Positions 43,217 to 60,492 of a DNA stretch of 64,000 nt are shown one piece after another; the first letter of the stretch is position 1; every line of letters begins with the position of its first letter. The stretch is from Prolixibacteraceae bacterium (GTDB lineage Bacteria; Bacteroidota; Bacteroidia; Bacteroidales; Prolixibacteraceae), in contig JAQUIJ010000006.1 in assembly GCA_028683385.1 (NCBI GenBank), forward strand, positions 62,001-126,000, in the 5' to 3' direction. A program made the position numbers and the translations under genes. The notes beneath the pieces were generated by a model. It searched no databases. It saw only the letters and a program-made list of their open reading frames with translations, and was not told where the DNA came from.

Positions 43217-43326
43217 GCGTTTTAGTTCCTGAAGGATTGAATTATTGAAGGATTGTTGTTGTGTTGCCAGTTGCAGAATACGAGTTGCGGGTAAAAAAAC
43301 TCGAAACACGCAACCTGTAACAGTTT

Positions 43327-44085: not shown

Positions 44086-44086
44086 A

Positions 44087-44995: not shown

Positions 44996-46179
44996 TTTCC
45001 CTGTATTCTTTTCATTAATTTTCCTTTCACGTAGAATTCAGCAATGGCATTCAGGATAAAAGTGAAGATGAACAACAACGATCCGATGAGAAAGAGCACA
45101 TTGTAATGGGTATCACCAAAAACCACTTCGGCCATTTCGGCGCCAATGGTGGCGGCTAGTGTGCGAACCGATTCGAACGGATTTAAGCCCATTAGTGCCG
45201 CATTACCGGTTGCCATTAGGGCAATCATGGTTTCGCCAAACACGCGGCCAATTCCAAGAAGTACCGCGGCAAAAATTCCCGGTGTTGCTGCCGGAAGAAT
45301 GACAAAAAAAGCAGTCTGCCATTTGGAAGCACCCAAGGCCAGGCTGGCTTCGTTGAATGTTTTCGGAACAGCGGTAAGTGCATCTTCGGTGATGGTGAAA
45401 ATAATCGGGATAGCTGCAATACCCATGGCAATACCACCAACAAACGAGTTTAGGCGGGTATCGTAATGAAACATACTCTGTAGAAAAGAGGCGAGTACCA
45501 TTAAAGCAAAAAAACCGATCACTACTGACGGAAATCCGGCCAACAGTTCGATGGTTGGTTTTATAATTTCTTTCATCCGCCGGCTTGCAAACGACGCCGT
45601 GTACAATGCAGCCAGAATAGCAATGGGTGCGGCGAATAAAATGGAAATAACGGTAATCTTAAATGTGCCAATTATTAGAGCGATAATTCCATAACGGGGA
45701 TTTTCCGAAACTGGCACCCAGTCTTTGGTCAACAATGATTTTAGTGCACTTCGATTGTCGTCGAAACCACTTCCGGCGCTGACGGTATAGCTTTTATCCG
45801 AATCGGCAGATTGCGATGACTTATCGGTAACTTCACCATAAGTCTCCTGAACGTTGCTATCCGCTGATTGGTCTGTCACTTCGCCGTAAGTTTCCTGAAC
45901 TTCCGGAGCGTTCGATTGATCAGTGACTTCACCGTATGTTTCCTGCACTTCAGCCGAGGCCTCAGTTTTTGCAGGCGCTTTTCCTGTCTTGAAAATTGGG
46001 AAGGATTCCCTGAATACAAAAATGAAAATCAGGACAACGATCGTGATTGACAAATAAGCAACCCCTTTGATTATTTTCTCGGCCAGATAATCGCTCCACC
46101 TGAATTTTCGTTGGGTAATGTCGATCAGACCAGAACTATTTTCCGTTGATTTTTTCCCCTTTTTGGTTTTTTTTGTCAT
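44992..46179 (-). CDS. pstC: phosphate ABC transporter permease PstC with a repeat-bearing periplasmic insert
   Basis: A 395-residue permease, about 100 residues longer than E. coli PstC. I start at the ATG at 46179 (MTKKTKKGKKSTENSS). After the first transmembrane helix (about 42-66) comes an acidic, low-complexity periplasmic stretch (about 67-140) containing a 16-residue unit, VQETYGEVTD plus a variable six, three times in a row. The rest is normal: EEA-like coupling loop EDALTAVPKTFNEASLALGASKWQTAFFVILPAATPGI and six core helices. The insert is not needed for transport in known homologues and may contact PstS or the wall. Confidence 0.92.
   Translation of the reverse strand: MTKKTKKGKKSTENSSGLIDITQRKFRWSDYLAEKIIKGVAYLSITIVVLIFIFVFRESFPIFKTGKAPAKTEASAEVQETYGEVTDQSNAPEVQETYGEVTDQSADSNVQETYGEVTDKSSQSADSDKSYTVSAGSGFDDNRSALKSLLTKDWVPVSENPRYGIIALIIGTFKITVISILFAAPIAILAALYTASFASRRMKEIIKPTIELLAGFPSVVIGFFALMVLASFLQSMFHYDTRLNSFVGGIAMGIAAIPIIFTITEDALTAVPKTFNEASLALGASKWQTAFFVILPAATPGIFAAVLLGIGRVFGETMIALMATGNAALMGLNPFESVRTLAATIGAEMAEVVFGDTHYNVLFLIGSLLFIFTFILNAIAEFYVKGKLMKRIQGK
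45823..45948. repeat. three 48-bp direct repeats inside pstC
   Basis: Three in-frame copies of a unit encoding VQETYGEVTD, with their first codons at 45948, 45900 and 45852 (minus strand), exactly 48 bp apart. Synonymous changes between copies (for example ACCATAAGT, GCCGTAAGT, ACCGTATGT on the plus strand) show that the protein sequence has been held while DNA drifted. Confidence 0.85.
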
Positions 46180-46270
46180 AAATCGAAGATGTAGTTCAAA
46201 AGACACACTATACCTAAGTTCCTATGAAAAAACTCAGGAACTTAGGTACTCAGGTATTTAGATGCTTTTT

Positions 46271-47110
46271 TTATTTTACCGGGAAATAACCAACTTCAAC
46301 AACCATTTTTTGACCTTCAGGACTTAAAATCCAGTCAATGTATTTTTTGAGTTCACCAGTTGGCCTGTTTTTCAAATACATGAATAAGTAACGGCTAATT
46401 GGATACTGGTCGTTTTTAATGGTTTCAGCATTGGCTGCATAAGCCGGGCTATTTTCATCCTTTTTTACTTTGCAGATTTCAATGCCTTCAGCATAAGCTG
46501 CTCCACCATAACCGATTCCGTTTGGATCTTTCTTCACTGCATTAACCACAGCAGCAGTTCCTGGTAAGGTCTGGCAATTTGAAGCATAATCGCCTTTCAC
46601 TACGTTTTCCTGAAAGAAAACATAAGTACCTGAACTATTTTCGCGTCCATAAAGTTTGATGTCAGCATCAGCGCCTCCAACTTCTTTCCAGTTTGTAATT
46701 TTGCCACTAAACATGTCGCCCAATTGTTTAATGGTCAGTTCTTTTACCTTGTTCGAAGGATTCAGATAAACAGTAATTCCGTCTTTAGCACAGGCAACTT
46801 CAACACCAAGCGTATTGTATCGGGCTTTCAGTTTGTCTTTTTCCGATGCTTTCATTTTACGGCTGGCATTGGCTATGTCGGTAGCTCCGTTAATTAAGGC
46901 CGAGATCCCAACTCCTGAACCGCCTCCGGTCACCTGAATGGCTGTGTTTGGATTGCTTTTCATGTAAACTTCGGCCCATTTCTGAGCAAGAATAACTAAG
47001 GTATCAGAACCTTTTACTACAATTTTATTGCTGGCAGGTGCAAAAGCGAAACCTACCATACCCAATAAAATGGCGATTATTGCAAACTTTTTAATATTCA
47101 ATGTTTTCAT
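46271..47110 (-). CDS. pstS: phosphate ABC transporter substrate-binding protein PstS
   Basis: A 279-residue periplasmic protein begun at the ATG at 47110 (MKTLNIKKFAIIAILLGMVG), which gives a signal peptide; a frame extension to 47143 is unlikely. It has the KGSDTLVILAQKW start, the phosphate-loop VTGGGSGVGISALINGATDIANASR and SSGTYVFFQENV with the second phosphate loop. This is the smaller PstS type common in Bacteroidota and distinct from the 340-residue E. coli protein. It lies 33 bp after the porin gene. Confidence 0.92.
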   Translation of the reverse strand: MKTLNIKKFAIIAILLGMVGFAFAPASNKIVVKGSDTLVILAQKWAEVYMKSNPNTAIQVTGGGSGVGISALINGATDIANASRKMKASEKDKLKARYNTLGVEVACAKDGITVYLNPSNKVKELTIKQLGDMFSGKITNWKEVGGADADIKLYGRENSSGTYVFFQENVVKGDYASNCQTLPGTAAVVNAVKKDPNGIGYGGAAYAEGIEICKVKKDENSPAYAANAETIKNDQYPISRYLFMYLKNRPTGELKKYIDWILSPEGQKMVVEVGYFPVK

Positions 47111-47143
47111 TTTTTCTGTTTTTAATATTGTTATAATTTTCAA

Positions 47144-48511
47144 TTAAAATTTAGCCTGAATTCTAAACGTCAAAACGTTGTTGTTAACATTCTTGCTGTA
47201 GTCAATTCCGTTTTTTACAACCGTTCCATCAGCTTTGGTATAGTTTTCGGTCAGTAGTCCGGCAGCGCTTACCTTTTCATTATTTACGATGTCGTAGTTT
47301 AACGAAATGCGGATGTTGTCGTCGAAATAGTGATGTAATGCAAATCCGAAAGTTGTAGTAGCCAGGTCGCTTTTACCACTTACCCTGTTTTTTAAAGTAG
47401 TAGCATCTGTCGAAGTGTATTTTGCAATTGTAACATCCTTACCGGTAATGTCTGTATTCGGATCGTAGTAATCGTAACGAAACGAGAATTGGTTCTTCTT
47501 ACCCAGATTCTTAATCCAATAAAGGTAATATCCTGAGAAATTATTCTGGAAATTGGCAACTCCCGGAATTGCGGCTGTTGTTCCTGATGCAGCAACCGGA
47601 GAATAACCAATTGAAGCATTTTTCCCGGCAAGGTATTCGCCTTTCAACGACATTCCACCCAAAAGATCGGCAAACAACTGGAACTCGCCACCAAACCAAT
47701 TCCTTTGAACGGCATCTCCAACATTAATATCTTTAATGGTAGTATAGTCGCTGCTTAAAGTCTTCAGGGCATTCGATTTTAATGATCCGAAGTAGCCGCT
47801 GGCACCAAAATCAAGTCCGCCGAAACTTCCTAAACTTAGGTTGTAAGTAGCGCGAATCATGATGTCTTTATAGTTATCAAAATCTTTGTTCTCGTTGCTG
47901 TTCAGGTTTGTTCCTGCGTTGTTGGCAATGGTTAACCCATCATTACCATTCAGCAAAGCCAGTTGCACGTGAACCGGGGTATTTTCAGGATTATATTCGA
48001 GTTTAGCTCCAAGTGCGTATTCGCCTGGATATAAAGTGCGAATGATCAACGACCGTTCAAGGTTTTCAAGCTGACCCGAGGAATACTCAACTTCGTAGTT
48101 TGGGCGGTTAAATTTACCCATCCATAAACTAAACGAATTGGTCCAGCGGTCGTTTAAAACCACATAGGCCTCTCTCAGCGAAACTGAGCCTGGTAAAAAA
48201 TCAGGTTGCAACAGAAATTTCACTCCATCGGCTGCCTGATAAGTGAATTTTAATCTTGCACGTCGTAAAGAAAGATAATTTGTAGGCTGAGCATTCAGAC
48301 TTTCAAAATGTTGATACTGTGCCTGCATATAACCTGAAACTTTAATCTTGTTAAGTTTCGATAGATCAGCTTCATCAGTTGCAAGCCGTTCGATCAAACC
48401 TTCTACTTTGTCATTCACTTCAGTTAGCTTTTCGTTGACAGTTGCTTCCTGAGCATTTGCATTAAAAAACCATAGAGATAAGAGCAATAAAGCAATCAAA
48501 CTTTTTCTCAT
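47144..48511 (-). CDS. OprO/OprP-like phosphate-selective porin
   Basis: A 455-residue outer-membrane protein. It has a signal peptide (about 1-20, FFNANAQ), a short coiled segment (VNEKLTEVNDKVEGLIERLATDEADL), then a porin barrel in the OprO/OprP pattern (VSGYMQAQYQHFE, LRRARLKFTYQAADGVKFLLQPDFLPGSVSLREAYVVLND) and a terminal Phe in LTFRIQAKF. It is the first gene of the pst operon and probably the outer-membrane entry for phosphate or polyphosphate. The Pho-box-like array lies 50 bp upstream. Confidence 0.88.
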   Translation of the reverse strand: MRKSLIALLLLSLWFFNANAQEATVNEKLTEVNDKVEGLIERLATDEADLSKLNKIKVSGYMQAQYQHFESLNAQPTNYLSLRRARLKFTYQAADGVKFLLQPDFLPGSVSLREAYVVLNDRWTNSFSLWMGKFNRPNYEVEYSSGQLENLERSLIIRTLYPGEYALGAKLEYNPENTPVHVQLALLNGNDGLTIANNAGTNLNSNENKDFDNYKDIMIRATYNLSLGSFGGLDFGASGYFGSLKSNALKTLSSDYTTIKDINVGDAVQRNWFGGEFQLFADLLGGMSLKGEYLAGKNASIGYSPVAASGTTAAIPGVANFQNNFSGYYLYWIKNLGKKNQFSFRYDYYDPNTDITGKDVTIAKYTSTDATTLKNRVSGKSDLATTTFGFALHHYFDDNIRISLNYDIVNNEKVSAAGLLTENYTKADGTVVKNGIDYSKNVNNNVLTFRIQAKF

Positions 48512-48685: not shown

Positions 48686-49807
48686 TTATTCGGAAGGCAA
48701 ATCGGGCGTCTGAATTCCCATTTCGTTTAGGACATCTCCTATTGCCAATACTAGTTTTTCAATGTCTTCCAAAAACAGTTGACCAATATTTCCAATCCTG
48801 AAACAGTTGGTATCGCTTAATTTTCCCTGGTAAATCACTTGTCCGCGCTGATGCAGACTTTCGTAGAATTGAGTAAAATCGAAATTCGCATGGTCAGGAA
48901 ATCGAAATGACGTGATGATATATCCCTGATCTTTTTTATCCAGATACGTTTTTAACCCGAGGGCTTCGGTTCCCTTCATCAATCGGCGATAGTTTTTCTG
49001 GTAACGTTCAGATCGTTTTGCAACTCCGCCTTCCGTTTTGAGTTCATCAATTGCTTTACGAAAGGCTAAAATGGATTGAATGGGCGGAGTGAAACGAAAC
49101 TGGTTGCTCTTTTTCATATCGATCCACTGGCTGTATAAATCGAGAGAAACGGTTCTGGCTTGTCCTGCGCATCTTTCGAGCGATTCTGATTTTGCAATCA
49201 CAAACGAAAACCCGGGAACTCCTTCGATACATTTGTTTGACGAAGAAATCAGGAAATCAATGTCCAGTGCCTTTAGGTTGATTGGTACAGCGCCAAAGCT
49301 GCTCATGGCATCCACTATAAATATTTTGCTGAATTTTTTCGCCAACAAGGCAATTCCTTCAATGTTGTTAAAAATGCCGGTTGTGGTTTCGCAATGAACA
49401 AGGGCGATGTGCGTTATCGTTTCATCGTCGAGCAGAATTTCTTCGGCATCATCAACCGAAGGAACTATATTTTCTTTGTATTTTAAAGTAGTTGTCCGGA
49501 TTCCATAAACATTGGCCATTTGCTTAATACGGTCGCCATAGGCTCCGTTGGTTAGAAGAAGCAGGTGTCCGAAACTGGGAATAACGGTCGAAATTACTGA
49601 TTCGACACCGAAAGTTCCAGAACCCTGCATCAGCACAGTATCGTACCCATCTTCCGGGGTCACTCCGGCAATGTTCAGCAATTCACTTCGTATTTCCTTT
49701 ACCACTTCCAGAAACTCCTTGTCACGCGAACCCATGTCGTGGAGCATGGCTTCTTTTACCGATTGTTTTGTATTTAGTGGCCCTGGGGTAAATAGTTTAT
49801 TGTCCAT
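48686..49807 (-). CDS. phnW: 2-aminoethylphosphonate--pyruvate transaminase
   Basis: A 373-residue PLP enzyme that converts aminoethylphosphonate and pyruvate to phosphonoacetaldehyde and alanine. The opening DNKLFTPGPLNTKQSVKEAMLHDMGSRDKEF is characteristic. PLP lysine is Lys192 in SSSNKCIEGVPGF, with VDAMSSFGAVP before it. It lies 11 bp after the MFS gene, in one operon with the AP-family hydrolase and phnX, and its stop is 174 bp upstream of the porin gene. Confidence 0.95.
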   Translation of the reverse strand: MDNKLFTPGPLNTKQSVKEAMLHDMGSRDKEFLEVVKEIRSELLNIAGVTPEDGYDTVLMQGSGTFGVESVISTVIPSFGHLLLLTNGAYGDRIKQMANVYGIRTTTLKYKENIVPSVDDAEEILLDDETITHIALVHCETTTGIFNNIEGIALLAKKFSKIFIVDAMSSFGAVPINLKALDIDFLISSSNKCIEGVPGFSFVIAKSESLERCAGQARTVSLDLYSQWIDMKKSNQFRFTPPIQSILAFRKAIDELKTEGGVAKRSERYQKNYRRLMKGTEALGLKTYLDKKDQGYIITSFRFPDHANFDFTQFYESLHQRGQVIYQGKLSDTNCFRIGNIGQLFLEDIEKLVLAIGDVLNEMGIQTPDLPSE

Positions 49808-49818
49808 ATTGATTGGTG

Positions 49819-51141
49819 TTATTCGATTATTGTTGATAATTCCGGAGTTTGGATTCGTGTATTCTCAGATTCAGCTTCCTGATTTTCTTTTCCGTAGTTC
49901 CATTTCAGGATGAGCAAAAAGGCTGCGATTAAGGTTACGATTACAAACAATCCAAAAAGCGTATCCCATCCGTATTTGCCAGAGACATATGCCACGGCAA
50001 CAGGTGAAAGCAACTGCCCGGCTGATCCGACTCCGTTAATCACTCCGGCAGCAAGCGCGGCTCCGTGATTTTTCCCGAAATCCATGGCCGCTGCTCCCGA
50101 CATGATTGAATCAGGCCCATAGGTGAAAAAGCCTATCAATCCGATTGAAACGATGGTTGGAACGATGCCGAGCGGACTGAGATGAGGTTGCAAATACAGC
50201 ACAAAAGCTAAACAGAAAAGCATGATTGAACTAATGGGGAAACGGCGCGATTTGAAAAGGTAATCGGAAGCATAGCCGGCGGCAAGTATGCCAAAAAAAC
50301 CGAAAGCCTCGTAAGCAATTGAGGTGTATCCGGCCTGTTGGTCGGAATATTTGAGGGCTTCAGACAAGTACAATGGAAGCCAGAAAAGGAAAGCGTATCG
50401 GGTAAACTTGACGAAAAAATACATGATTGCAGCAATCCAAACTGCTCCATTTTTCAGCACAGCCAACTGAGCCGTTTTTTCTTTTCGTTTACCTTTTGGT
50501 GTATCCGTGCTTTTTTCGAAGGATTCGAGATTCACGTCGGTTGGACTATTACGAGCCATCAGGATATAAACCAGCGAAATGAGCAGCAGCAGTATGGAAG
50601 GAACCAGAAATGCCCGACGCCACGATAAATTCGCCATGATAATCTGATTGGAGAGCCAGTAAGTGGCGAAAGCTGTTGCAGCCATCCCGCCAATCACATA
50701 ACAGGTGGTCCAGTACGACATGACTACGCCACGTTCTTTCTTTTTAAACCAGGGAGTCAGGTTTTTGATCAGCCCCGACCAACCTGACGATTGCCCGAAA
50801 CCATTTAATCCCATCAGGAAAAGAAACGAACCAACAGTTCCCATCCAACCCATCATCAGGTTTGAAATAACCGAAAGCAAAAGCCCGATGCCAACAATCA
50901 AACGTGGGCCGTGGCGGTCGCTCAGGTAGCCGTTCAGAAACTGGCCAATCATATACATAAGGCTGTAAACGGTAATGACAACTGCAAATTCATCTTTCGA
51001 GGTGTGCAGTTCGCGACTCAATACCGGCATGACCACACTGAAATTTTTCCGGCAAAAATACATTCCGAAATAAGCGAGCCAGGTTACTGAAAAGATTTGC
51101 AACCTCCACCTTTTCATTTCGGGCGAAATAGCTTTGGCCAT
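49819..51141 (-). CDS. MFS permease of the organophosphate-antiporter type, candidate AEP transporter
   Basis: A 440-residue protein with 12 transmembrane helices. The start EMKRWRLQIFSVTWLAYFGMYFCRKNFSVVMP and NGYLSDRHGPRLIVGIGLLLS, NGFGQSSGWSGLIKNLTPWF resemble the OPA family (GlpT, UhpT), which carry phosphorylated compounds. Since it sits between phnW and the AP-family gene with gaps of 11 and 3 bp, its cargo is probably a phosphonate such as AEP. This cargo is inference from context. Confidence 0.85.
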   Translation of the reverse strand: MAKAISPEMKRWRLQIFSVTWLAYFGMYFCRKNFSVVMPVLSRELHTSKDEFAVVITVYSLMYMIGQFLNGYLSDRHGPRLIVGIGLLLSVISNLMMGWMGTVGSFLFLMGLNGFGQSSGWSGLIKNLTPWFKKKERGVVMSYWTTCYVIGGMAATAFATYWLSNQIIMANLSWRRAFLVPSILLLLISLVYILMARNSPTDVNLESFEKSTDTPKGKRKEKTAQLAVLKNGAVWIAAIMYFFVKFTRYAFLFWLPLYLSEALKYSDQQAGYTSIAYEAFGFFGILAAGYASDYLFKSRRFPISSIMLFCLAFVLYLQPHLSPLGIVPTIVSIGLIGFFTYGPDSIMSGAAAMDFGKNHGAALAAGVINGVGSAGQLLSPVAVAYVSGKYGWDTLFGLFVIVTLIAAFLLILKWNYGKENQEAESENTRIQTPELSTIIE

Positions 51142-51144
51142 GTT

Positions 51145-52233
51145 TTATTTGGTATAAATATCCCTGATCGGTTTACCGATTGGATGCTCAGCCGTAAATT
51201 CCAGTCCAAGCAAAGCAGCAATCGTTGCGGCGTATTGCCTTTGATACAATTGCTCAGTCGTTTTTACTTCACCCAATGATTTTGTGTCGGGACCAATTAC
51301 AGCAATCCAGGTTTCACCCGAGTCTTTGATATTCTCCCCATGATCTTTCCATTGGTCTTTAATCAGATCTCCTCTGCCATGGTCGCAGGTGATAATCAAG
51401 GTTGTCTTGTTTTTATATTGAGGGTTGGATTGGACGATGGACCAAATATCGGCAAGCATGGCATCTTCGGCTTGGGCGCTTTTCAGGTATTGGTCATATT
51501 CGCCGGCATGGCCCAAATCGTCGGTTTCGTCAAAAGCAATGTACAGCACTTTAGGTTGGTAGGCTTTAAAGTATTCACGGGCAGCCATGTAAGTAATTAC
51601 ATCGGGACGAACATCAATAGGTCTGGGCGTAAGAAATTGCATGTCGTTGATCAGCTTCAGGTTCGAATTGTCGAACTTTAAAGTGTCAACATCCGAATTT
51701 ACATAAACGCCACTTCTTGGTTCGTTAATGATGTATGGGAAAACATCCCAGGTGCTAAATACTGCAACCTTCCCTTTGTAGCTTTTCTGTTGGTTGATGA
51801 ATTCCAGCACATTGGTGTTTTTATTCATTACCTTATCGTTCGAATTTACTGTCGGGTCGGCGTATCCGGTTAGCATTTCATTGTACCCGGGATACGAAAA
51901 CTGATATGGATTGGCCACATTTACTTTACTCCCGGCATTTCGGTTTCCGTGCAATTGTCCATTCGGTACTACAACATTCCAAATAAACGGGAAAAGCTTG
52001 CGCCTTCTTACCTCTAAATTATTGTTCCAGAAGCTTGCCGACGTCCCATCGTAATTTTTAGTGTAGTTTTTATTTTTCAACAAGGTTGAATCGGCGCCAC
52101 CAAATATTTCCTGCCAGCGCAAACCATCAAGAGTTACCAGAATGATGTTCTCTGTTTTTGTTTGCGCCTGTATTTTGCCGATTGTGAATTGGAAGAGCAG
52201 GATGAATACGGAAAGTGTGAATATCTTTTTCAT
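51145..52233 (-). CDS. secreted alkaline-phosphatase-superfamily hydrolase in the phosphonate locus
   Basis: A 362-residue protein with a signal peptide (about 1-23). The fold is the AP/nucleotide-pyrophosphatase type: metal-site Asp in IILVTLDGLRWQEIF, a probable nucleophilic Ser in QFSYPGYNEMLTG (the place of the Thr in NPP enzymes), FDETDDLGHAGEY and TCDHGRG with the second metal site, and His in KDHGEN. NPP-like enzymes split phosphodiesters. Since it is exported and sits with phnW and phnX, it may free AEP or phosphate from esters in the periplasm. Phosphonoacetate hydrolase (PhnA) is a cousin, but the signal peptide argues against that role. Confidence 0.8.
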   Translation of the reverse strand: MKKIFTLSVFILLFQFTIGKIQAQTKTENIILVTLDGLRWQEIFGGADSTLLKNKNYTKNYDGTSASFWNNNLEVRRRKLFPFIWNVVVPNGQLHGNRNAGSKVNVANPYQFSYPGYNEMLTGYADPTVNSNDKVMNKNTNVLEFINQQKSYKGKVAVFSTWDVFPYIINEPRSGVYVNSDVDTLKFDNSNLKLINDMQFLTPRPIDVRPDVITYMAAREYFKAYQPKVLYIAFDETDDLGHAGEYDQYLKSAQAEDAMLADIWSIVQSNPQYKNKTTLIITCDHGRGDLIKDQWKDHGENIKDSGETWIAVIGPDTKSLGEVKTTEQLYQRQYAATIAALLGLEFTAEHPIGKPIRDIYTK

Positions 52234-52257
52234 GGGATATTTAATGTTAGAAACGGT

Positions 52258-53136
52258 TTAGAAGAACATTGGGAAATAATTAAACAGTTGCTTTCCCTTT
52301 GTAACGGTGGGTAAATCCTGATGATTGGTCGGGACACTGGTCTCAATTTGTTGGTCAATTTCTTCCAGAACAGACCAACAATCCCAAACACCTTCGGCTA
52401 CAAAATTGGCACCGGCATTCAACAATTTACGACCGGCAACAGCAATCTTTTCGGCCAGCCAAACAGGGTCGGCAGCATTGGCCTCGGCGAGCGACAATCC
52501 CAACTCGTTTCCCGATTTGGTTAACCCGATTGTCCACACTCCCGCATTTTTACCTTCCTGAATGTCGGCAACCGTATCGCCGATTTTTACCATTTGGCTG
52601 AGCGGATAAACATCCATAATCTCGCAATTCAGGTAAATCATCCACGGTGCCGGGCGGCCAGCAGAAACTTCCGAAGAACTAATAATTGCATCGGGCAATA
52701 AACCTGCTGCGGTGGTTATTGGAATAATAGTATTCATCATTTCTTCGACATAACCTGTAGTTGTACCTACTTTGATGCCTTGCTTTTTGAGCGAATTAAT
52801 CAACTCAATAGCTCCGGAAATTGGGTCGCAATAGTCTTTTACAATTTCAGCCAAGGCTGGCTCCAATTCCGAATAAATACTTTCTACATCTGCTTCTGAT
52901 GGAACCCGGCCATATTCGGCCAGCCATTGTTTTTGTACCGTATCAAACCCGAAAAGCGCCCGAACGTGATCTTTCTTTGCCAATCCCATCGGAGTGCGTG
53001 CTTCTTCCATGGTGATAATAATTTCTCTTTTACGGAAAACTTCTATAAACACTTGCGTTGGCGCTATGCAACCGTAGTCGATGATCGTTCCAGCCCAGTC
53101 GAAAATGACTGCTTTAATGTTTTTGAGTTGATTCAT
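52258..53136 (-). CDS. phnX: phosphonoacetaldehyde hydrolase (phosphonatase)
   Basis: A 292-residue HAD-family enzyme that cleaves the C-P bond of phosphonoacetaldehyde to acetaldehyde and phosphate. The nucleophile Asp is Asp13 in AVIFDWAGTIIDYG; the Schiff-base Lys lies in TPMGLAKKDHVRAL; KIGDTVADIQEGKNAGVWTIGLTKSGNELG is the HAD Mg motif and cap region. I take the ATG at 53136; another four codons upstream (53148) is possible. It is upstream of the AP-family gene by 24 bp and completes the phnW pathway. Confidence 0.94.
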   Translation of the reverse strand: MNQLKNIKAVIFDWAGTIIDYGCIAPTQVFIEVFRKREIIITMEEARTPMGLAKKDHVRALFGFDTVQKQWLAEYGRVPSEADVESIYSELEPALAEIVKDYCDPISGAIELINSLKKQGIKVGTTTGYVEEMMNTIIPITTAAGLLPDAIISSSEVSAGRPAPWMIYLNCEIMDVYPLSQMVKIGDTVADIQEGKNAGVWTIGLTKSGNELGLSLAEANAADPVWLAEKIAVAGRKLLNAGANFVAEGVWDCWSVLEEIDQQIETSVPTNHQDLPTVTKGKQLFNYFPMFF

Positions 53137-53189
53137 ATTGCTTATCAATGTTTTATGTGAATGTTCATAACTTCCCTAATTGTTTTAAT

Positions 53190-53410
53190 CGGAGGGGCTT
53201 TGCCCCTTGCCCCAATTCCTTTTTTGTCTTGACACAAAAAAGGAATCAAAAAAGGTCAAGGCTGTGCCCGCTTCGCTCGAAAAACTAACGTTCGACGGCT
53301 AAAATCTTTTAAACTCGCCTGACGGCTCAAACAGAAAAGATTTTTTAACGCCGCCTTCACTTGTTTTTCGGCTCATCGGCCAAGGCCAGTCGCCACCAAC
53401 AAGAACCATT
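53190..53410. repeat. structured intergenic repeat with nested palindromes
   Basis: It begins with GGGGCTTTGCCCC (53194-53206), then ATTCCTTTTTTGT (53215-53227) is inverted perfectly at 53234-53246, and AAAATCTTTT / AAAAGATTTT arms follow around 53301-53345. I recognise the pattern (CTTGACACAAAAAAGGAA near GTCAAGGC, GACGGCT) as a dispersed noncoding repeat of Bacteroidota genomes. It lies between phnX and susD and may separate their expression. No ORF fits. Confidence 0.65.
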
Positions 53411-53466
53411 TCCATTTTAGGCAAAATACCAGACATCCATTATGTTTTAAATAATTTTTTTTACCA

Positions 53467-53495
53467 TAAAACCCTGACAGCAAAAGCTGCCAGGG
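53467..53495 (-). terminator. terminator behind the SusD gene
   Basis: On the minus strand CCCTGGCAGC and GCTGTCAGGG form a 10-bp stem around a TTTT loop, followed by TTTTAT. Confidence 0.7.
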
Positions 53496-53532
53496 AAATC
53501 AAACAGAGGAATGTATATATGAACGATGCTGT

Positions 53533-55023
53533 TTATTTGATGATCCACATTTCCGAATTAATGTCGTCGGTTGCAGCGCCAAATTGACTAGTCAGGGCTG
53601 CATTGTAATTGGTGGCGTTGGTCGTCCGTTCAGAACTTGGATACTGCCAGCGTTTGGCAATACGTCCGCTGTTCGCTGTTCCGGGGCCAGTGAGGAAAGT
53701 TGGCACACCTGTACGTCGGTAGTTGTTGTAAGCTTCCCATCCCGAATTCTGGAAGAACGCCAGGTATTTCTGAGTTAAAATCTGAGTAAGTGCTGTGGCA
53801 GAGGTGCTGCTTAATTTGACAGAAGGCTGCGCATAATAGGCAGTCCATTTTGTTTCAACATCAGTTACCCCGTGGAAAGTCCATGATGCTTTAATGCCTT
53901 TGGTGTAGTAATCTTCGGCATTGCCGGCAACCCAACCACGGTTAATCGCTTCGGCAATGCTAAAGCACACTTCGGAATAACCAATTTGAATACATGGTTC
54001 GCCAAGGTAGGAGCTGTAATAATGGCTTTTACTGATTGGCGAATATTCTCCGTTCAGCATTTTGGTTGACATGTCGTCCAAACTTTCGCCTGAACTTGCT
54101 CCAACATAAGCTTCGTAATCGGATGCTGTAAGTCCGGCTTTAATTTTGGCAGGAGCCGGATCGGCAACAATGAAAGTACGAGGGTCTTTCAACGATACCA
54201 GAGTATTCAGGTAAGTGGCCGCCATGTTGTTACGGGTGGCTGTCTGTCCGTAATTATCCTGATTCAGTGGGTATTTTGTGTCAGAGCTGTTGTAAGTGAA
54301 CTTCAGGTTATCGTCCAACGAAGTCATTGCCGGGTATTTGGTCGGGTTATTTACCACATTGGCAAATTGAGTTTTGATGTTCAGATCGGTATCCGATTCT
54401 TTTTTGCTCAGTGCTATCAGTACGCGAAGTTTGTAGCTGTTCACCACTTTTTGCCATTTCATAAGGTCGTTGCCAAGCATAAAATCACCTGTAAGAGATT
54501 GGTCGTTACTGTTAATGAGGGTCTGAAGTTCAGTATTCGATTCTTCGAGCCAGGTTAATGCCTGTTTAAATACCGCTTTTTGCGTATCGTATGTTGGAGC
54601 TGTATTTTCAAGGCTTTTCAACGCATCTGTCATTGGTACATCACCGAGCCTCAAACTCATATCGACAAAAAAGTAGGCTTTAAAAAATTTGCCGATGGCG
54701 GAATATGGATTGTTATCGGCTAAACCAACACGCTTTGCTTCCGAAATCATCTGGTTCACATTCTTCAACTGATCGTAATTGAAGTCGGTTGTTGTCCAGT
54801 CGTATTCCTGATCGTCGTAATAAGCGTAGTTGCTGCAGTGAAATTGACCCCATCTCATTTGGTCGCTCCATGGCGAGTAATACAGTTTGTAAAGTACTCT
54901 GGTAAATACCAGTGATGGAGGTACATCACCCGGACGGTTCGGATCTTTTTCAAGATCTGAAAATTTCTGGCATGACGATAATCCTACTGCGAATACCATC
55001 ATGAATATGATTAATTTTTTCAT
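53533..55023 (-). CDS. SusD/RagB-like outer-membrane lipoprotein
   Basis: A 496-residue lipoprotein (lipobox VGLSSC, Cys18) of the SusD-like superfamily: tetratricopeptide-like helices with DLEKDPNRPGDVPPSLVFTRVLYKLYYSPW near the N-terminus and EAINRGWVAGNAEDYYTKGIKASWTFHGV in the C-terminal half; QNSGWEAYNNYRRTGVP is the usual late motif. SusD proteins cap the paired SusC transporter and bind the substrate at the surface. It is paired with the SusC gene (37-bp gap). Its position next to phnX suggests a phosphonate-containing substrate. Confidence 0.92.
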   Translation of the reverse strand: MKKLIIFMMVFAVGLSSCQKFSDLEKDPNRPGDVPPSLVFTRVLYKLYYSPWSDQMRWGQFHCSNYAYYDDQEYDWTTTDFNYDQLKNVNQMISEAKRVGLADNNPYSAIGKFFKAYFFVDMSLRLGDVPMTDALKSLENTAPTYDTQKAVFKQALTWLEESNTELQTLINSNDQSLTGDFMLGNDLMKWQKVVNSYKLRVLIALSKKESDTDLNIKTQFANVVNNPTKYPAMTSLDDNLKFTYNSSDTKYPLNQDNYGQTATRNNMAATYLNTLVSLKDPRTFIVADPAPAKIKAGLTASDYEAYVGASSGESLDDMSTKMLNGEYSPISKSHYYSSYLGEPCIQIGYSEVCFSIAEAINRGWVAGNAEDYYTKGIKASWTFHGVTDVETKWTAYYAQPSVKLSSTSATALTQILTQKYLAFFQNSGWEAYNNYRRTGVPTFLTGPGTANSGRIAKRWQYPSSERTTNATNYNAALTSQFGAATDDINSEMWIIK

Positions 55024-55060
55024 TTCTGTATAATTGTGAGTTTGTAAATAAAACTTTGGT

Positions 55061-58000
55061 TTAGAAACTGATATTCAGGTTGAACCCAAAGCGACGGGTT
55101 GTAGGGGTTTGAAGTCCGGAAGAACCATTGCTTTCGTCGATGTATTGCTCGATATCGATATCGGTCCGTTCTGCAAAATACAACAGGTTACGGCCTACAA
55201 ACGAGATATTAGCCTGTTTGATAAAGGTTTTGCTTAATACAGTTTGAGGGATTGTGTAGGTTAAAACCACTTCGCGCAGTTTCACAAAAGTGCGGCTAAT
55301 GCGGTCAGCAACATCGGTTCCGTAGTAACGGCTGATGTAATCTTGCAGGTAAGTTGCCGTTGTGTTTGGTGCAAATTGCAACTTGTCGTAATTGGTAACC
55401 TGTCCGTCTGAATTGTATTCAATGGCCTGTCCGTTACTTACAACTACTCCTTCGCCAACGTATGATTTAATACCTTTGGTGTCGTTAATCCGGGCAGCTC
55501 CCATATCGCCAAGCACAGTGTTAATGTGGCGACCTCCCTGATATGTTTTCTTTTCAACATAGTCAAGAATATGTCCGCCAAATCGGCCGTCAAACTGAAC
55601 TTTCAGGCTTAAATTCTTGTATGAAAATGTGTTGTTTATCGCACCAACCCAATCCGAATTTGCATTTCCAAGATATTGGGCAACCGAGTTCCGAATAGGT
55701 CGACCACTGGCATCGTTTATAATTTTGCCATCCGAAGTTCTCACAAAGTCCGACCCATACATTTTGTCCATGCGGTCGCCTACTTTTAAATAGATGTTCA
55801 GTTTTTCAACTCCGGGGTAAATTTCTTTCAGATATCGTTGATAGGTTGAGTAGTTAGCCGAAATATCCCAGCTAAAGCCATTGACTTTATGCACCGGCGA
55901 TCCTGAAACATTGATTTCAATACCTTTTCGCTGAACTTTGATCCCATTCACTAAAGCCGACGAATACCCGGTTGCTCCTGAAATTGGCAAAGAAAAAATC
56001 TGAGGTCCGTCGATACTCGAAAAGTAGGTAACATCGAACATGAGTTTGTTTTCGAAAAGTCCCATATCCGTACCCACTTCCCATGCTGAACTTGAGTTTG
56101 GTTTCAGGTTAGGGTTCGAAATGGTGTTGGTAAAAGCAGCGGCTGGTTTTCCCTGAATCAGGTCAATGGAATATGATGAAGAATTCTGATAAGATGGGCC
56201 GTCGTAAGGCGAATAATAGTTACCGCCATAACCCGGAACCCACAATTGTCCAATAGTGCTTGATGTTAAGGCGCCACCGACTTGAGCATATGAACCTCTG
56301 ACTTTCCATGACTTAACGTAAGGAATAGTCATCAGTTTTGACAACTCGATACTGGTTGAAACCGATGGATAGAAATAAGTGTTGTGACTGGTTGGCAGGG
56401 TTGAGTTTTTATCGGCACGGCCGGTTAACGACAAGGTCAAAAAATCGTCGTAGGTAAGGTCGGCAGTGGCATAGGCACTCAACACTTGCATAGGAGCATA
56501 GAAGTTATACGATTTTACAGGGTTTTTTGAGTTACTCAGGTTATACCATCCCGGAACATTCATGTAATCGGTTGTGGCGTAGCTGCTTCTAAATGAGTAG
56601 GAACGAATATTTCCCCCGGCAGTGGCATGCAAACTTAGTTTTGGTACCACATAACGGTCGTACGATAAAAGTACATCGGTATTGTTTTCAAAAAGGTTAC
56701 GCTTGTCTTCGCGGTAATCGCCTTCGCCAGCTTCGCGACCATAAGGATGTGCCGAGTAAGGCAACTTTTCTGAACGGAATAAATCGTAGGTTGAAATGGC
56801 TGTTCGGGCTTGCAAATTAAAGTAATCGCTAATTTTGTATGATGTGGTTGCATTTCCTGTAAGGTCGTTTTTGTAGTGACCGCGTAACCATTCGTACGAC
56901 ATGAAGTAAGGATTGTGGTAACGTTGATATTCGGCATAAATGGATTGAACACCTTCTTTGCCGGGTTGCCAGTAGTTACGCATATCATCAATGTTCCAAT
57001 CGGCACCGCCCCAGGCAATGATGTTGTAGATAATACTGTTAGGACCATAGTTCACATCAGGAACATTGGGGGTGTATTGGCGACTATAAGCCATGTTGGC
57101 ACTTATACGAAGCTTCTTCGAAACGTTGTAGCCTCCGTTTAAATTGAAGTTGGTAATATTGAGCTTGGTATTTGGCACGATACCTTTTTGGTAACTGTGC
57201 GAAGCAGAGAAGCGAAGGTCGTATTTTTCGCCGCTTGCCGAAAGGGCTAAACTGTTGTTCGAAAGAAGTCCGGTTTCAAGAAAACGTTTCAGGTTATCTT
57301 TTCCACGGGCAACATATGGTGTTGGTTTAATATGGCCTGTGTAGGTTGAGCCATTCGCAAAAGTAGTCGTGTAAGAAGTTCCGGGTGTATATTCGCCATC
57401 GTATTGCGGAATCAATTGTCCGTCAAAGCGTGGTCCCCAAACATCATAGTCTCCATCATTCAATCCACCACCTTTCCCATCAGCAAATGCGTAGATTCCA
57501 TGGTCGCCGGGACCGTATTCGTCCTGAACTTTTGGAATGGCCAAAAAACCACTCTCGGTCATAGTGCTTGAATTGAAATCGACAGAGAAACCTCGTTTAT
57601 CAGAAGTTCCGCGTTTGGTCGTAATCTGAATGGCGCCGTATTGGCCTCTCGATCCATATAGTGCCGCAGCGGTAGGGCCTTTTAATACGGTATAGCTTTC
57701 AATGTCATCGGGGTTGATGTTCCAGGTATCGGTCTGAACCGGAACTCCATCAACGACATAGAGTGGAGCTGCTCCACGAAGTAGAACCGAAGGCGCTCCA
57801 AGAATTTCAGAAGAAGCGCCGACTGTTAAACCAGCTACTTTTCCGGTCAGGGCATTGATCGCGTTAGGTTCCCTGGCTTTAACCAACTCAGTACCTTTTA
57901 CGTCCTGAATGGAAAACCCGATGGTGCTTTTTTCTTTTACAATACCTAATGCTGTTACAACTACTTCTTTGATTTCCTGTTTCGAATCTTCTAAAGTAAT

Positions 58001-58270
58001 ATCGATCACTTTTTGATTGCCAACCGTAACTTCAATGGTTTCGAATCCGATATACGATGCGACCAAAATGTCTTTCGGTTCTGCCTTAATGGTGAAATGC
58101 CCATTAACATCCGATAAGGTTCCGTTAGTGGTTCCCTTTACCAGAATGGTTGCGCTTGGCAGACTCTCTCCATTGCTGGTTTTTACCGTTCCTTCAACAG
58201 TTGCCTTTTGGGCAAATACCGTTGATCCAATCAGAAGGAACATGATAATTAATAAGGTAAATTTTTGCAT
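55061..58270 (-). CDS. SusC/RagA-family TonB-dependent receptor
   Basis: A 1069-residue outer-membrane receptor with a signal peptide (about 1-20), a carboxypeptidase-like regulatory domain (about 22-100, VEGTVKTSNGESLPSATILVKGTTNGTLSDVNGHFTI), a plug (about 110-225, VNALTGKVAGLTVGASSE type, ending LRGAAPLYVVDGVP and PTAAALYGSRGQYGAIQITTKRG) and a 22-strand barrel ending FGFNLNISF. It pairs with the SusD-like gene, so it transports an oligomeric or bulky ligand, not simply a siderophore. The cargo is not established. Confidence 0.95.
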   Translation of the reverse strand: MQKFTLLIIMFLLIGSTVFAQKATVEGTVKTSNGESLPSATILVKGTTNGTLSDVNGHFTIKAEPKDILVASYIGFETIEVTVGNQKVIDITLEDSKQEIKEVVVTALGIVKEKSTIGFSIQDVKGTELVKAREPNAINALTGKVAGLTVGASSEILGAPSVLLRGAAPLYVVDGVPVQTDTWNINPDDIESYTVLKGPTAAALYGSRGQYGAIQITTKRGTSDKRGFSVDFNSSTMTESGFLAIPKVQDEYGPGDHGIYAFADGKGGGLNDGDYDVWGPRFDGQLIPQYDGEYTPGTSYTTTFANGSTYTGHIKPTPYVARGKDNLKRFLETGLLSNNSLALSASGEKYDLRFSASHSYQKGIVPNTKLNITNFNLNGGYNVSKKLRISANMAYSRQYTPNVPDVNYGPNSIIYNIIAWGGADWNIDDMRNYWQPGKEGVQSIYAEYQRYHNPYFMSYEWLRGHYKNDLTGNATTSYKISDYFNLQARTAISTYDLFRSEKLPYSAHPYGREAGEGDYREDKRNLFENNTDVLLSYDRYVVPKLSLHATAGGNIRSYSFRSSYATTDYMNVPGWYNLSNSKNPVKSYNFYAPMQVLSAYATADLTYDDFLTLSLTGRADKNSTLPTSHNTYFYPSVSTSIELSKLMTIPYVKSWKVRGSYAQVGGALTSSTIGQLWVPGYGGNYYSPYDGPSYQNSSSYSIDLIQGKPAAAFTNTISNPNLKPNSSSAWEVGTDMGLFENKLMFDVTYFSSIDGPQIFSLPISGATGYSSALVNGIKVQRKGIEINVSGSPVHKVNGFSWDISANYSTYQRYLKEIYPGVEKLNIYLKVGDRMDKMYGSDFVRTSDGKIINDASGRPIRNSVAQYLGNANSDWVGAINNTFSYKNLSLKVQFDGRFGGHILDYVEKKTYQGGRHINTVLGDMGAARINDTKGIKSYVGEGVVVSNGQAIEYNSDGQVTNYDKLQFAPNTTATYLQDYISRYYGTDVADRISRTFVKLREVVLTYTIPQTVLSKTFIKQANISFVGRNLLYFAERTDIDIEQYIDESNGSSGLQTPTTRRFGFNLNISF

Positions 58271-58390
58271 TTTTACTTGGTTAGAATTAATACTTTTCTT
58301 CTCTTTTTTTTGACATAGAAATGGCCGTTTACAGCATTTTGTGCCATAAAAACCAGTAAAATCAATAATTAATAAATTGCTTTTTTATAT

Positions 58391-58930
58391 TTAGAATACC
58401 AGATTTACCTGCTTGGTAAATAGGTTGGTCAACGAATTTGCATCATTGGTTTCGCCGATTGCTTTTTCAAAACTGGCAGTTTCGGCGGTAAGCACATTAA
58501 ATGCAACATCCAATACCTTATTAAATTCGGCTGATGCGGTTTCGGTTGTGAGTTCTCCCTTCTTTACTGATTTTTTCAAGTAACGCTCAATCTTCTTTAC
58601 CGCATCGTATATTACAGGTTTACGAATCATTGTGCGGGTTTGCGGGTTTCCGGGTACGATTGGAACCTCGTAGGTATATTTCGAATTGAGCAAGTACAAT
58701 TTTTCGGCTACCAGTTTCCCCAGAAAATGTTCGCCAATCATTTCGCTTGAAATAGCTTTCAACTCATTGTTGTTGTCAGAAGCCCTAAACTCAAAACTAG
58801 GTAATCCGGCAAGGGCAACCTTTGTTGTTTTAGTGTCGCCGGTAAAATTCATCGCCAAAGCCTCTTGTGCAAATACCCTCCCAACTATCGATGAGAAAAT
58901 AATAACTGTAAAAAGTAATTTTGTTTTCAT
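58391..58930 (-). CDS. small secreted protein of unknown function
   Basis: A 179-residue protein with a signal peptide (about 1-21, GRVFAQ). The mature part is helical with many Lys and Glu (YDAVKKIERYLKKSVKKGELTTETASAEFNKVLDVAFNVLTAETASFEKAIGE). I do not recognise a family. It lies between the PbfA-like gene and susC, 120 bp upstream of the latter, in the same direction. Copy 2 of the conserved 61-bp module lies 43 bp upstream of its ATG. Confidence 0.7.
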   Translation of the reverse strand: MKTKLLFTVIIFSSIVGRVFAQEALAMNFTGDTKTTKVALAGLPSFEFRASDNNNELKAISSEMIGEHFLGKLVAEKLYLLNSKYTYEVPIVPGNPQTRTMIRKPVIYDAVKKIERYLKKSVKKGELTTETASAEFNKVLDVAFNVLTAETASFEKAIGETNDANSLTNLFTKQVNLVF

Positions 58931-58973
58931 TCGTATACAATGTTTTTGATTTGTTGAAAGTCGTCACGTACTC

Positions 58974-59034
58974 ATGGAATAGCCATTTATACATTTTCGG
59001 TTGGTATAGGCATTTGCCCTTATGGCTATTTCAT
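58974..59034 (-). promoter_or_regulatory. conserved 61-bp upstream module, copy 2
   Basis: On the minus strand it begins ATGAAATAGCCAT and ends AAATGTATAAATGGCTATTC plus CAT, the same outer sequences and length as copy 1 at 34168-34228. It precedes the 179-residue secreted protein gene (ATG at 58930) by 43 bp. Both copies point the same way toward their downstream genes, which supports a shared regulator or leader. Confidence 0.6.
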
Positions 59035-59130
59035 GATCTAACTGTTTGTTTATCGGTACAAAGGTCTGTTTGTAATATTGTAATCTGATTATGAATGGAT
59101 TAATCTTCGATTAATATTTTGTAGCGTTTT

Positions 59131-60492
59131 TTATAAATCTTTAACCAAATTATTCTTGAAGGCCTGCGAAAGAATGGAAATTGCTTTTTGCAAATCTTCA
59201 CGGCTGATTGTCAACGCCGGTGAAAGTTGAAGCACATTTCCCTGTGAGACTTTAAAACTCAATCCATGAGCCATACAATCGTACATGATTTGTTCGGCTG
59301 CTTCACTTGCTTTCTCTTTTGTTTCACGATTTTTCACCAGTTCAATGCCCCACAAAAGGCCTAACCCGCAGATGTCGCCAATCATTGGGAACTGTTCTTT
59401 CAGAAGGTTTAATTCTTTGTGCATCCAAAGTCCATCATCTAAAACTTTTTGCAGAAGGTTTTCTTCTTCGATATAATTAATAGTTGCCAGCGCGGCCACG
59501 CTTCCCAACGGACTCTTTTCGTGGGTGTAATGGCCCAGTGAAATATTCTGAGCAACGTTATAATTATCGCGCGCCACCATGGCCGCAAATGGGATGATAC
59601 CACCTCCCAGTCCTTTCCCTAAGCAGATGATGTCGGGTTCAATGCCGAAGTTTTCGAAAGCGAACATTTTGCCTGTACGCCCAAGCGCAATCGGAATCTC
59701 ATCGAGAATTAACAGAACACCATGCCTGGTGCATATTTCACGAACCCGTTTCCAGTATGCTTTTGAAGGAATTTGCACATCGGTATTCCGAATGGTTTCA
59801 GCCAGAAACGCGCCAACCTCACCATCTTTTTCGATTACATATTCCAGATAATCGGCGTATTTTAACTGATCCTCTTCTGTATTTCCAAAAATACCCCGGA
59901 ATGTGGTTGGTGGAGGAATGTGCATTACCCCCGGAAGTAATGGTTCCATTTGTTTTCTGAAAATAGCTTCACCGCCAGCCGAAATGGCATCGAGCGAAGC
60001 GCCGTGAAACGAATCCCAAAGCGAAACGAGTTTGTGCTTTCCGGTAACCACACGTGCAAGTTTCAACGCTATGCCAATAACCGAAGTTCCACCCGGAGCA
60101 AATAAACTTCGGTTCAGGTTTCCAGGCAACAAATCGGCCAATTTCCGGGCCAGTTCAACAGCAGGCTGATTGGTGTACCTGCGCGGTGAAAACGGCAGGC
60201 TCTTGAGTTGTTCAGTAATTCGACTGATGACATAATCATTTCCGTAGCCCAACTGGTGAACATTGTTTCCGTGAAAATCCAGTAATTTTCTTCCGGAGAT
60301 CGTTTGCATCCCGCTTCCTTTACAGTTTTCCAACACATCGAGGCAAGGGGTCGACATCGACTGGTGTATAAAATAGCGGGCGTCGTCGGCCAGAATCTGG
60401 CGGGTTAAAGGATCAGTAATCGTCTGATTCCATTTCAGGCGCCCTTTGGTAAAATTGATGTCGCCTTCGGTTAGTAATCCGGTAATTTCCAT
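59131..60492 (-). CDS. pbfA: class III PLP enzyme, probable (R)-1-hydroxy-2-aminoethylphosphonate ammonia-lyase
   Basis: A 453-residue fold-type I enzyme with Asp264 in LILDEIPIALGRTGKMF and PLP lysine Lys293 in LGKGLGGGIIPFAAMVA. Segments such as ADDARYFIHQSMSTPCLDVLENC, LDFHGNNVHQLGYGN, SPRRYTNQPAVELARKLADLLPG and LGHYTHEKSPLG match what I recall of PbfA, which turns hydroxylated AEP into phosphonoacetaldehyde and ammonia. That product feeds PhnX, which is in the same cluster with PhnW. It is the most upstream gene of the minus-strand island. An ordinary acyl-chain transaminase is the alternative; the cluster favours PbfA. Confidence 0.8.
   Translation of the reverse strand: MEITGLLTEGDINFTKGRLKWNQTITDPLTRQILADDARYFIHQSMSTPCLDVLENCKGSGMQTISGRKLLDFHGNNVHQLGYGNDYVISRITEQLKSLPFSPRRYTNQPAVELARKLADLLPGNLNRSLFAPGGTSVIGIALKLARVVTGKHKLVSLWDSFHGASLDAISAGGEAIFRKQMEPLLPGVMHIPPPTTFRGIFGNTEEDQLKYADYLEYVIEKDGEVGAFLAETIRNTDVQIPSKAYWKRVREICTRHGVLLILDEIPIALGRTGKMFAFENFGIEPDIICLGKGLGGGIIPFAAMVARDNYNVAQNISLGHYTHEKSPLGSVAALATINYIEEENLLQKVLDDGLWMHKELNLLKEQFPMIGDICGLGLLWGIELVKNRETKEKASEAAEQIMYDCMAHGLSFKVSQGNVLQLSPALTISREDLQKAISILSQAFKNNLVKDL

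Follow-up and report, generated by a model that had tools for sequence, protein, structure and literature searches.

A SusC/SusD pair linked to aminoethylphosphonate genes in a Prolixibacteraceae bacterium, and its relatives in Bacteroidota

Why should an outer-membrane importer of the SusC/SusD (SusCD) type be encoded next to enzymes that degrade 2-aminoethylphosphonate (AEP)? The question is raised by a locus at positions 48686–60492 of a 64,000-nucleotide stretch of a Prolixibacteraceae genome (the window; assembly GCA_028683385.1, contig JAQUIJ010000006.1, positions 62,001–126,000). A first-pass annotation of the sequence had placed eight genes here on the minus strand, and the open reading frames (ORFs) with their Pfam and NCBIfam matches confirmed the genes and their order: PbfA, a small secreted protein, SusC, SusD, PhnX, an alkaline-phosphatase (AP)-superfamily hydrolase, a major facilitator superfamily (MFS) permease and PhnW (Table 1). 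We find that the association of this SusCD type with phosphonate genes is beyond chance. On balance, we favor the reading that the region is a phosphonate-utilization locus, with the layout of a polysaccharide-utilization locus aimed at phosphorus, in which SusCD would import an ester-linked aminophosphonate that is then broken down to phosphate.

Relatives of the importer and their carbon–phosphorus genes

A search of contigs with the window SusD sequence alone yielded 79 loci, each fetched with at most 10 kb on either side. Their ORFs were grouped into clusters, from which representatives or members went into the family scans. We left out L089–L093 (distant SusD, E 3e-9 or weaker) and L088 (a SusD fragment), and 73 loci were counted. 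A carbon–phosphorus (C–P) pathway gene (any of PhnW, PbfA, PhnX or PhnX-like, TIGR03364 oxidase, Phn-HD oxygenase, PhnA and PhnY) was present in the fetched stretch of 55 of these 73 SusD relatives. Conserved synteny had been proposed in the first-pass annotation as the check on a SusCD–phosphonate link, and the link is borne out. Its refuting condition, the regular occurrence of SusCD orthologues without phn genes, was put to the test: the 18 closest orthologue loci (identity 66% or more) carry C–P genes in 13 cases, and there are real exceptions such as L018. L088, outside the counts, carries TIGR03364 and PhnX-like genes.

The linked families (E≤1e-40, 129 scanned) were TIGR03364 oxidase (36), TIGR03351 PhnX-like (25), Phn-HD oxygenase (19), and PhnX, PhnW and PbfA (13 each). 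PhnA exceeded its cut-off in 3 of 3 tested and PhnY in 2 of 2. The clade is tied to several C–P chemistries, namely those of PhnX, PhnA/PhnY and the Phn-HD oxygenase.

Thirteen more distant SusD loci served as controls. They come from genomes with PhnX or TIGR03364, three of them from the window's own genome, and two lie on contigs of 4–5 kb. None of the 13 has C–P genes, against 55 of 73 in the clade (Fisher p 2.4e-7). In a SusD tree, which was a quick one with many long outgroup branches, 78 rows form one group with a Shimodaira–Hasegawa-like (SH-aLRT) support of 99. Of these 78, 60 have C–P genes, and the 60 include the window itself as well as L102, L104, L113, and L130, which were reached via genomes picked for C–P genes; on this count, the comparison with the 0/13 controls gives p 1.1e-7.

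Co-occurrence was examined in 250 genomes of another order, in which every listed row belongs to one family, and relatedness inflates the figures. TIGR03364 was found in 110 of these genomes, and SusD matches at E≤1e-130 were found in 96. With a line at 600 bits, placed at a score gap after the scores were seen, 76 of the 79 genomes with SusD at or above it also have TIGR03364; 34 genomes have TIGR03364 alone, and 137 have neither. SusD copies of at least 600 bits lie within 15 kb of TIGR03364 in 58 of 81 cases, and copies of 430–600 bits in 3 of 35. Judged by synteny and co-occurrence, the SusCD clade is a phosphonate-linked importer that would be used with several C–P-cleaving pathways across Bacteroidota.

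Several of the 18 C–P-negative clade loci end at a contig edge (L017, L023, L029, and L053). The 17 genomes holding these 18 loci were searched with two families, PhnX and TIGR03364. Over the cut-offs, 2 have PhnX elsewhere and 10 have TIGR03364, 12 in total.

Seen from the enzymes, SusCD is an addition to phosphonate catabolism and not a requirement, because it stands beside PhnX in only 4 of 12 genomes and beside TIGR03364 in 2 of 14. PhnX is rare, occurring in 3 of 198 genomes of a class sample and 12 of 393 of an order sample, with the window genome counted in both. In the order sample, SusCD adjoins PhnX in the window, L101, L102, and L104. The other eight loci (L094–L100 and L103) all have PhnX and PhnW with DUF5690. 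A SusC-like gene lies about 7 kb from PhnX at the stretch edge in L094 (where PhnX was placed by search coordinates, an antisense ORF having displaced it in the ORF list), a SusC-like piece lies four genes off at the stretch end in L099, and L100 has a 38-bit SusC match. TIGR03364 occurs in 14 of 198 class-sample genomes, several on short contigs, and SusCD adjoins it in L106 and L113. Among the remaining 12, at least L111, L112, and L117 have a different kind of TonB receptor and an AP-superfamily enzyme beside TIGR03364, possibly a second outer-membrane phosphonate route. L111 and L112 also have a large laminin-G/type IX secreted protein near TIGR03364.

One locus of the order sample, L101, holds PbfA, PhnX, PhnW, an MFS carrier, an AP hydrolase of the window family, and two calcineurin-type enzymes, and its SusCD falls outside the clade. 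The L106 SusCD also does so. SusCD was thus probably recruited to phosphonates more than once.

Three other families were observed in these loci. DUF5690 (PF18943, MFS-like), which lies by PhnX/PhnW in 8 of 8 SusD-less PhnX loci and also occurs in many SusCD loci, is likely an aminophosphonate carrier to judge from its neighbors; no paper on it was found in the literature searched. One protein cluster, with an HTH_3 plus cupin_2 regulator as its scanned member, accompanies the SusCD-TIGR03364-DUF5690 genes at L036 (2044–2610) and 28 further loci, and it is a candidate phosphonate-responsive regulator. In L016 (11602–12762), L021, and L022, SusD and PhnX are separated by a saccharopine-dehydrogenase-like gene, which stands before PhnX in L026. 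It belongs to a different family from the published racemase PbfF, a pfam02826 enzyme.

Proteins of the locus and the proposed route

The window proteins were identified by Pfam and NCBIfam profile scans, with NCBIfam scores judged against curated cut-offs. PhnW, PhnX, and PbfA all exceed theirs, in agreement with the AEP/hydroxy-AEP catabolism proposed earlier, and the two enzymes of the hydrolytic AEP pathway, PhnW and PhnX, do so at equivalog level. PhnW also scores 455 bits for TIGR02326 (cut-off 401) and 432 bits for TIGR03301 (cut-off 361), and it matches the solved PhnW 9kk8 with an E-value of 6.5e-103. Residues 10–267 of PhnX align with the solved PhnX 2iof (E 5.7e-78). The FDWAGT motif and a lysine ahead of the DHVRAL region are in register with 2iof, and we take these to be the nucleophile motif and an active-site residue, respectively. 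Among the 18 closest orthologue loci (L015–L031 and L054), 9 carry PbfA.

SusC and SusD are side by side on the same strand, 37 bp apart. SusC has the CarbopepD_reg_2, plug, and barrel domains. The lipoprotein cysteine of SusD, C18, is invariant across 27 aligned sequences, and clade-specific residues include K112, R264, Y69, Y251, and Y420. The nearest solved relatives are 3mx3, 3ejn, and 4ler, whose names mention no ligand. The small 179-residue protein has no Pfam or NCBIfam match at E 0.001, and its structure model (predicted local distance difference test, pLDDT, 81; moderately confident) has no fold match in the PDB at E≤0.001. Its homologues occur in 14 of the 79 SusD-search loci and directly precede SusC in all 14.

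The best subfamily matches of the MFS permease are the PgtP/GlpT/UhpC/UhpT organophosphate carriers, with every score below cut-off among the matches listed (25 of 32; the best is TIGR00881, 238 versus 408). With this protein as query, a plasmid search reached no more than 36% identity and added nothing useful on gene context. The AP hydrolase is positive for a signal peptide by a heuristic, and its model adopts the AP-superfamily fold. The structure hits are LtaS (the best PDB match, template modeling (TM) score 0.54), YejM, and sulfatases, all with TM scores of about 0.5, which identify the superfamily and do not tell substrates apart. In a profile search against PDB sequences, no match was better than E 0.015. 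Homologues of the hydrolase occur in 13 of the 79 SusD-search loci.

Table 1. Features of the SusCD-phosphonate locus and the adjacent operon (window coordinates).
Feature	Position	Strand	Basis
PbfA	59131..60492	-	NF049939 708 bits, cut-off 525
Small secreted protein, 179 aa, putative SusC accessory	58391..58930	-	Signal peptide (heuristic)
SusC-type TonB-dependent outer-membrane importer	55061..58270	-	TIGR04056 513 bits, cut-off 368
SusD-type surface lipoprotein, importer lid	53533..55023	-	PF12771 SusD-like_2 232 bits
Terminator-like hairpin, SusD/PhnX gap	53472..53495	-	10 pairs, 7 G-C, T-rich tail; pattern match only
PhnX, phosphonoacetaldehyde hydrolase	52258..53148	-	TIGR01422 313 bits, cut-off 220
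Predicted exported alkaline-phosphatase-superfamily hydrolase	51145..52233	-	PF01663 29.8 bits vs 23, weak
MFS organophosphate-type permease	49819..51141	-	MFS_1 185 bits, full-length
PhnW, 2-aminoethylphosphonate-pyruvate transaminase	48686..49807	-	NF010006 470 bits, cut-off 296
Adjacent phosphate operon (porin-like, PstS, two permeases, PstB-like ATPase, PhoU)	42551..48511	-	Pfam + NCBIfam

The gaps between PhnX, AP hydrolase, MFS permease, and PhnW are 24, 3, and 11 bp, and that between SusD and PhnX is 384 bp. The latter contains the terminator-like hairpin (53495–53472), so that the SusCD part and the PhnX-AP-MFS-PhnW part may be two transcription units; the terminator scan overall gave 15 sites versus 14.0 in shuffles. 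A promoter scan gave 24 sites versus 27.7 in shuffles.

These assignments suggest the following route. SusC/SusD would bind an aminophosphonate ester-linked to a lipid or glycan fragment and import it into the periplasm, where the predicted exported AP-superfamily hydrolase would cut the ester and free AEP or hydroxy-AEP. The freed aminophosphonate would enter the cytosol through the GlpT/AepP-like MFS permease of the inner membrane, possibly by exchange with phosphate. In the cytosol, PhnW would turn AEP, and PbfA (R)-hydroxy-AEP, into phosphonoacetaldehyde, which PhnX would split into acetaldehyde and phosphate. The cytosolic steps follow established family chemistry, with equivalog scores for PhnW, PhnX, and PbfA.

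The cargo of the importer and rival explanations

Six predicted exported esterase families are linked to the SusD loci: the AP type of the window (14 members, window included), a second AP type (13), a calcineurin type (9), a beta-propeller plus PF04185 phosphoesterase (7), a PHP/CehA-like type (5), and GDPD (4). The word 'exported' denotes a prediction, because the signal-peptide heuristic is crude and also flags 33 of 36 flavin (FAD) oxidases and 3 of 14 PhnW proteins. It was positive in all members of five families, and the sixth, the calcineurin type, has a twin-arginine motif in 9 of 9. At least one of the six families is present in 39 of the 55 C–P-positive loci. The first same-strand gene downstream of SusD is an esterase in 23 of 73 loci (AP 10, second AP 4, propeller 3, GDPD 3, calcineurin-type 3).

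An ester-linked cargo would fit this arrangement, since predicted phosphoester-cutting enzymes outside the cytoplasm adjoin an outer-membrane importer and enzymes for free aminophosphonates. N-methyl-AEP is described as lipid-bound in invertebrates (PMC10590968; this and the other papers are cited from available excerpts). The larger phosphonate cargo suggested in the first-pass annotation has no more than indirect support from the linked esterases, which are found near some SusD loci without C–P genes as well. A wider proposal, that the clade is a phylum-wide importer for lipid- or glycan-bound aminophosphonates with several C–P routes, six interchangeable esterase families, and DUF5690 as the usual inner-membrane carrier, is tentative, and we hold it to be slightly more doubtful than probable.

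Several results weigh against an ester-bound cargo or a dedicated phosphonate role. None of the six esterase families is found in the fetched stretch of 16 of the 55 C–P-positive loci, and an esterase is carried by 4 of the 18 C–P-negative clade loci. Esterase models also match at 5 of the 13 control SusD loci, strongly in L121 and L126 and weakly (47–49 bits) in L123, L124, and L131. The closest orthologue loci have an esterase of another family in 9 of 18 cases and none in the other 9; no homologue of the window AP hydrolase occurs in any of the 18. Neither PhnX nor TIGR03364 reaches the cut-off in the genomes of L017, L018, L023, L053, and L062. L018 is a close orthologue whose flanks, each about 10 kb long, hold no C–P genes. 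Eight of the 12 order-sample PhnX genomes have no SusD match in the fetched stretch, and to these points is added the inflation of the co-occurrence figures by relatedness.

In the strongest rival, SusCD would take up small aminophosphonates in free form (AEP, hydroxy-AEP, N-methyl-AEP) where their concentration is low, with the esterases serving other phosphate esters. This reading would account for the 16 loci devoid of the six esterase families, for the missing window hydrolase in the 18 closest orthologue loci, and for the esterases near SusD loci without C–P genes. In the same order, the eight SusD-less loci combine PhnW and PhnX with DUF5690, and therefore free AEP seems not to need SusCD. 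SusCD pairs usually import oligomers, and an esterase is present in 39 of 55 loci. We regard this rival as unlikely. Within four genes, the six esterase models match at 0 of 8 SusD-less PhnX loci and at 2 of 4 with SusCD (the window assigned by hand), numbers too low to bear a conclusion. Ten neighbors of the SusD-less loci were scanned with Pfam; one is a PAP2 protein immediately following PhnW in L094, and another, at L095, has a TPM_phosphatase domain.

Alternatively, SusCD might serve phosphate-starved cells as an importer of general phosphodiesters or phosphate-rich polymers, with the phn genes merely sharing a phosphorus island. The window locus adjoins a pst operon, the linked esterases include GDPD and PF04185 phosphoesterases, the GDPD loci L066 and L069 have no C–P gene in the fetched stretch, and Flavobacterium PusCD is reported in PMC8115612 to be induced on phosphate depletion. 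However, the clade is linked to C–P enzymes of unrelated chemistry, whereas distant SusD loci in such genomes are linked to none (0/13), and the L066 and L069 genomes carry TIGR03364 elsewhere. The close orthologue loci, some on short contigs, lack pst genes except for a 24% PhoU-like match in L028. We consider this explanation improbable.

PhnW-type enzymes can work biosynthetically, and PhnW might act in that direction here, with the locus decorating the cell surface with AEP. The window genome, at 5.9 Mb and rated 100% complete, has one PhnW over the cut-off. Its one protein of the phosphoenolpyruvate (PEP)-mutase superfamily over the Pfam cut-off scores 81 bits versus a PEP mutase cut-off of 320, and 118 bits for methylisocitrate lyase (cut-off 354). 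A phosphonate-making route or a biosynthetic PhnW in this host is unlikely because that protein is so far below the PEP mutase cut-off. PhnX and PbfA are, moreover, degradative. We rejected this explanation as very improbable. SusCD pairs are numerous in such genomes and the long flanks of L018 hold no phn genes, but the idea of a glycan importer beside phn genes by chance is hardly credible and was rejected because of the clade-wide synteny. The co-occurrence agrees with this, as do the Pfam scans of 20 window proteins, which revealed no carbohydrate-active enzyme (CAZyme) family.

Related systems and neighboring features

We read the window locus as a phosphonate variant, of AEP/hydroxy-AEP type, of the 'Pus' systems of Flavobacterium, by analogy. 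In both, phosphoesterases and a carrier for organophosphorus compounds in the inner membrane accompany SusC and SusD (PMC8115612, as excerpted). The window locus holds a phosphatase/phosphodiesterase and an organophosphorus carrier, assigned by family only (AP enzyme, GlpT-type MFS), and no CAZyme family was seen in the 20 proteins scanned. PUSI and PUSII are described with phosphodiesterases and PhoA1, whereas the window locus has the full PhnW/PhnX/PbfA set. The first-pass annotation took a SusCD-coupled version to be undescribed, which was too strong: one sentence in the available part of PMC8115612 (2020) states that PusCD complexes co-localize with phosphonate-degrading enzymes. The words 'phnX' and 'phosphonoacet' are absent from its main text. 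In the present analysis, one SusD clade with members in several families carries the link, which is set beside PUS by description. A SusCD coupled to PhnW/PhnX/PbfA was not described in the titles and abstract openings listed by searches of a literature collection that lacks most subscription journals, nor in the available parts of PMC10752948 and PMC7939548.

Hydrolytic AEP clusters with phnWX and pbfA (PMC8154272, PMC12366243) share PhnW, PhnX, and PbfA with the window, over equivalog cut-offs. In the excerpts of PMC12366243, pbfA accompanies phnX in phyla other than Proteobacteria. The words 'SusC', 'TonB', and 'outer membrane' are absent from the main texts of both papers. The characterized AEP importers are given as ABC and MFS systems in PMC8316502, which presents AepP, a GlpT-related MFS 2AEP permease of Pseudomonas putida also reported in Kriegella aquimaris (Bacteroidetes). 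As with AepP, the window has an organophosphate-type MFS encoded with PhnW/PhnX; the window protein is recognized only as a member of the broader organophosphate-antiporter family, below the subfamily cut-offs. 'TonB' is absent from that text, and its sole 'susc' match is the word susceptible.

PbfB/C/D are FAD oxidases that feed N-methyl-AEP into phosphonoacetaldehyde, and TIGR03364 is mentioned once in the accessible text of PMC10590968, which lacks the words 'SusC', 'TonB', and 'outer membrane'. TIGR03364 proteins occur in 36 SusD-search loci, but none is present in the window locus. Polysaccharide-utilization loci share with the window an outer-membrane SusC/SusD, an exported hydrolase, and an inner-membrane carrier, but the window has phosphorus catabolic genes in place of CAZyme families.

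Phosphonoglycans and phosphonolipids are the predicted products of most phosphonate biosynthesis clusters (PMC6697681, from the part available). If the phylum-wide reading of the SusCD clade is true, these compounds have dedicated consumer machinery. A SusCD clade that follows C–P catabolism would serve as a genetic marker, and it would offer a testable route by which bound phosphonates are consumed in soils and waters. The role of SusCD would widen beyond glycans and phosphate esters, and functions would be suggested for DUF5690 and several exported esterases.

The pst operon genes (42551–47143) lie directly downstream of the phn locus on the same strand, a position that is at most a hint that phosphate depletion induces the locus. 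PstS scores 244 bits for TIGR02136 (cut-off 207), and Pfam matches are BPD_transp_1 twice, ABC_tran, and PhoU. The first protein of the operon is porin-like by inspection only and has no family match. We rejected pst as part of a conserved module on the evidence of the close orthologue loci given above.

The window's own genome has another SusCD pair (L121, 6142–17448), with a beta-propeller phosphoesterase about 4 kb downstream and without C–P genes. At 61190–64000 of the window, and continued in L133 (1191–8399), lies a divergent TonB-dependent receptor of 957 residues with no more than a weak SusC-model match. It runs past the window end, and a 1441-residue protein with a type IX sorting domain comes after it.

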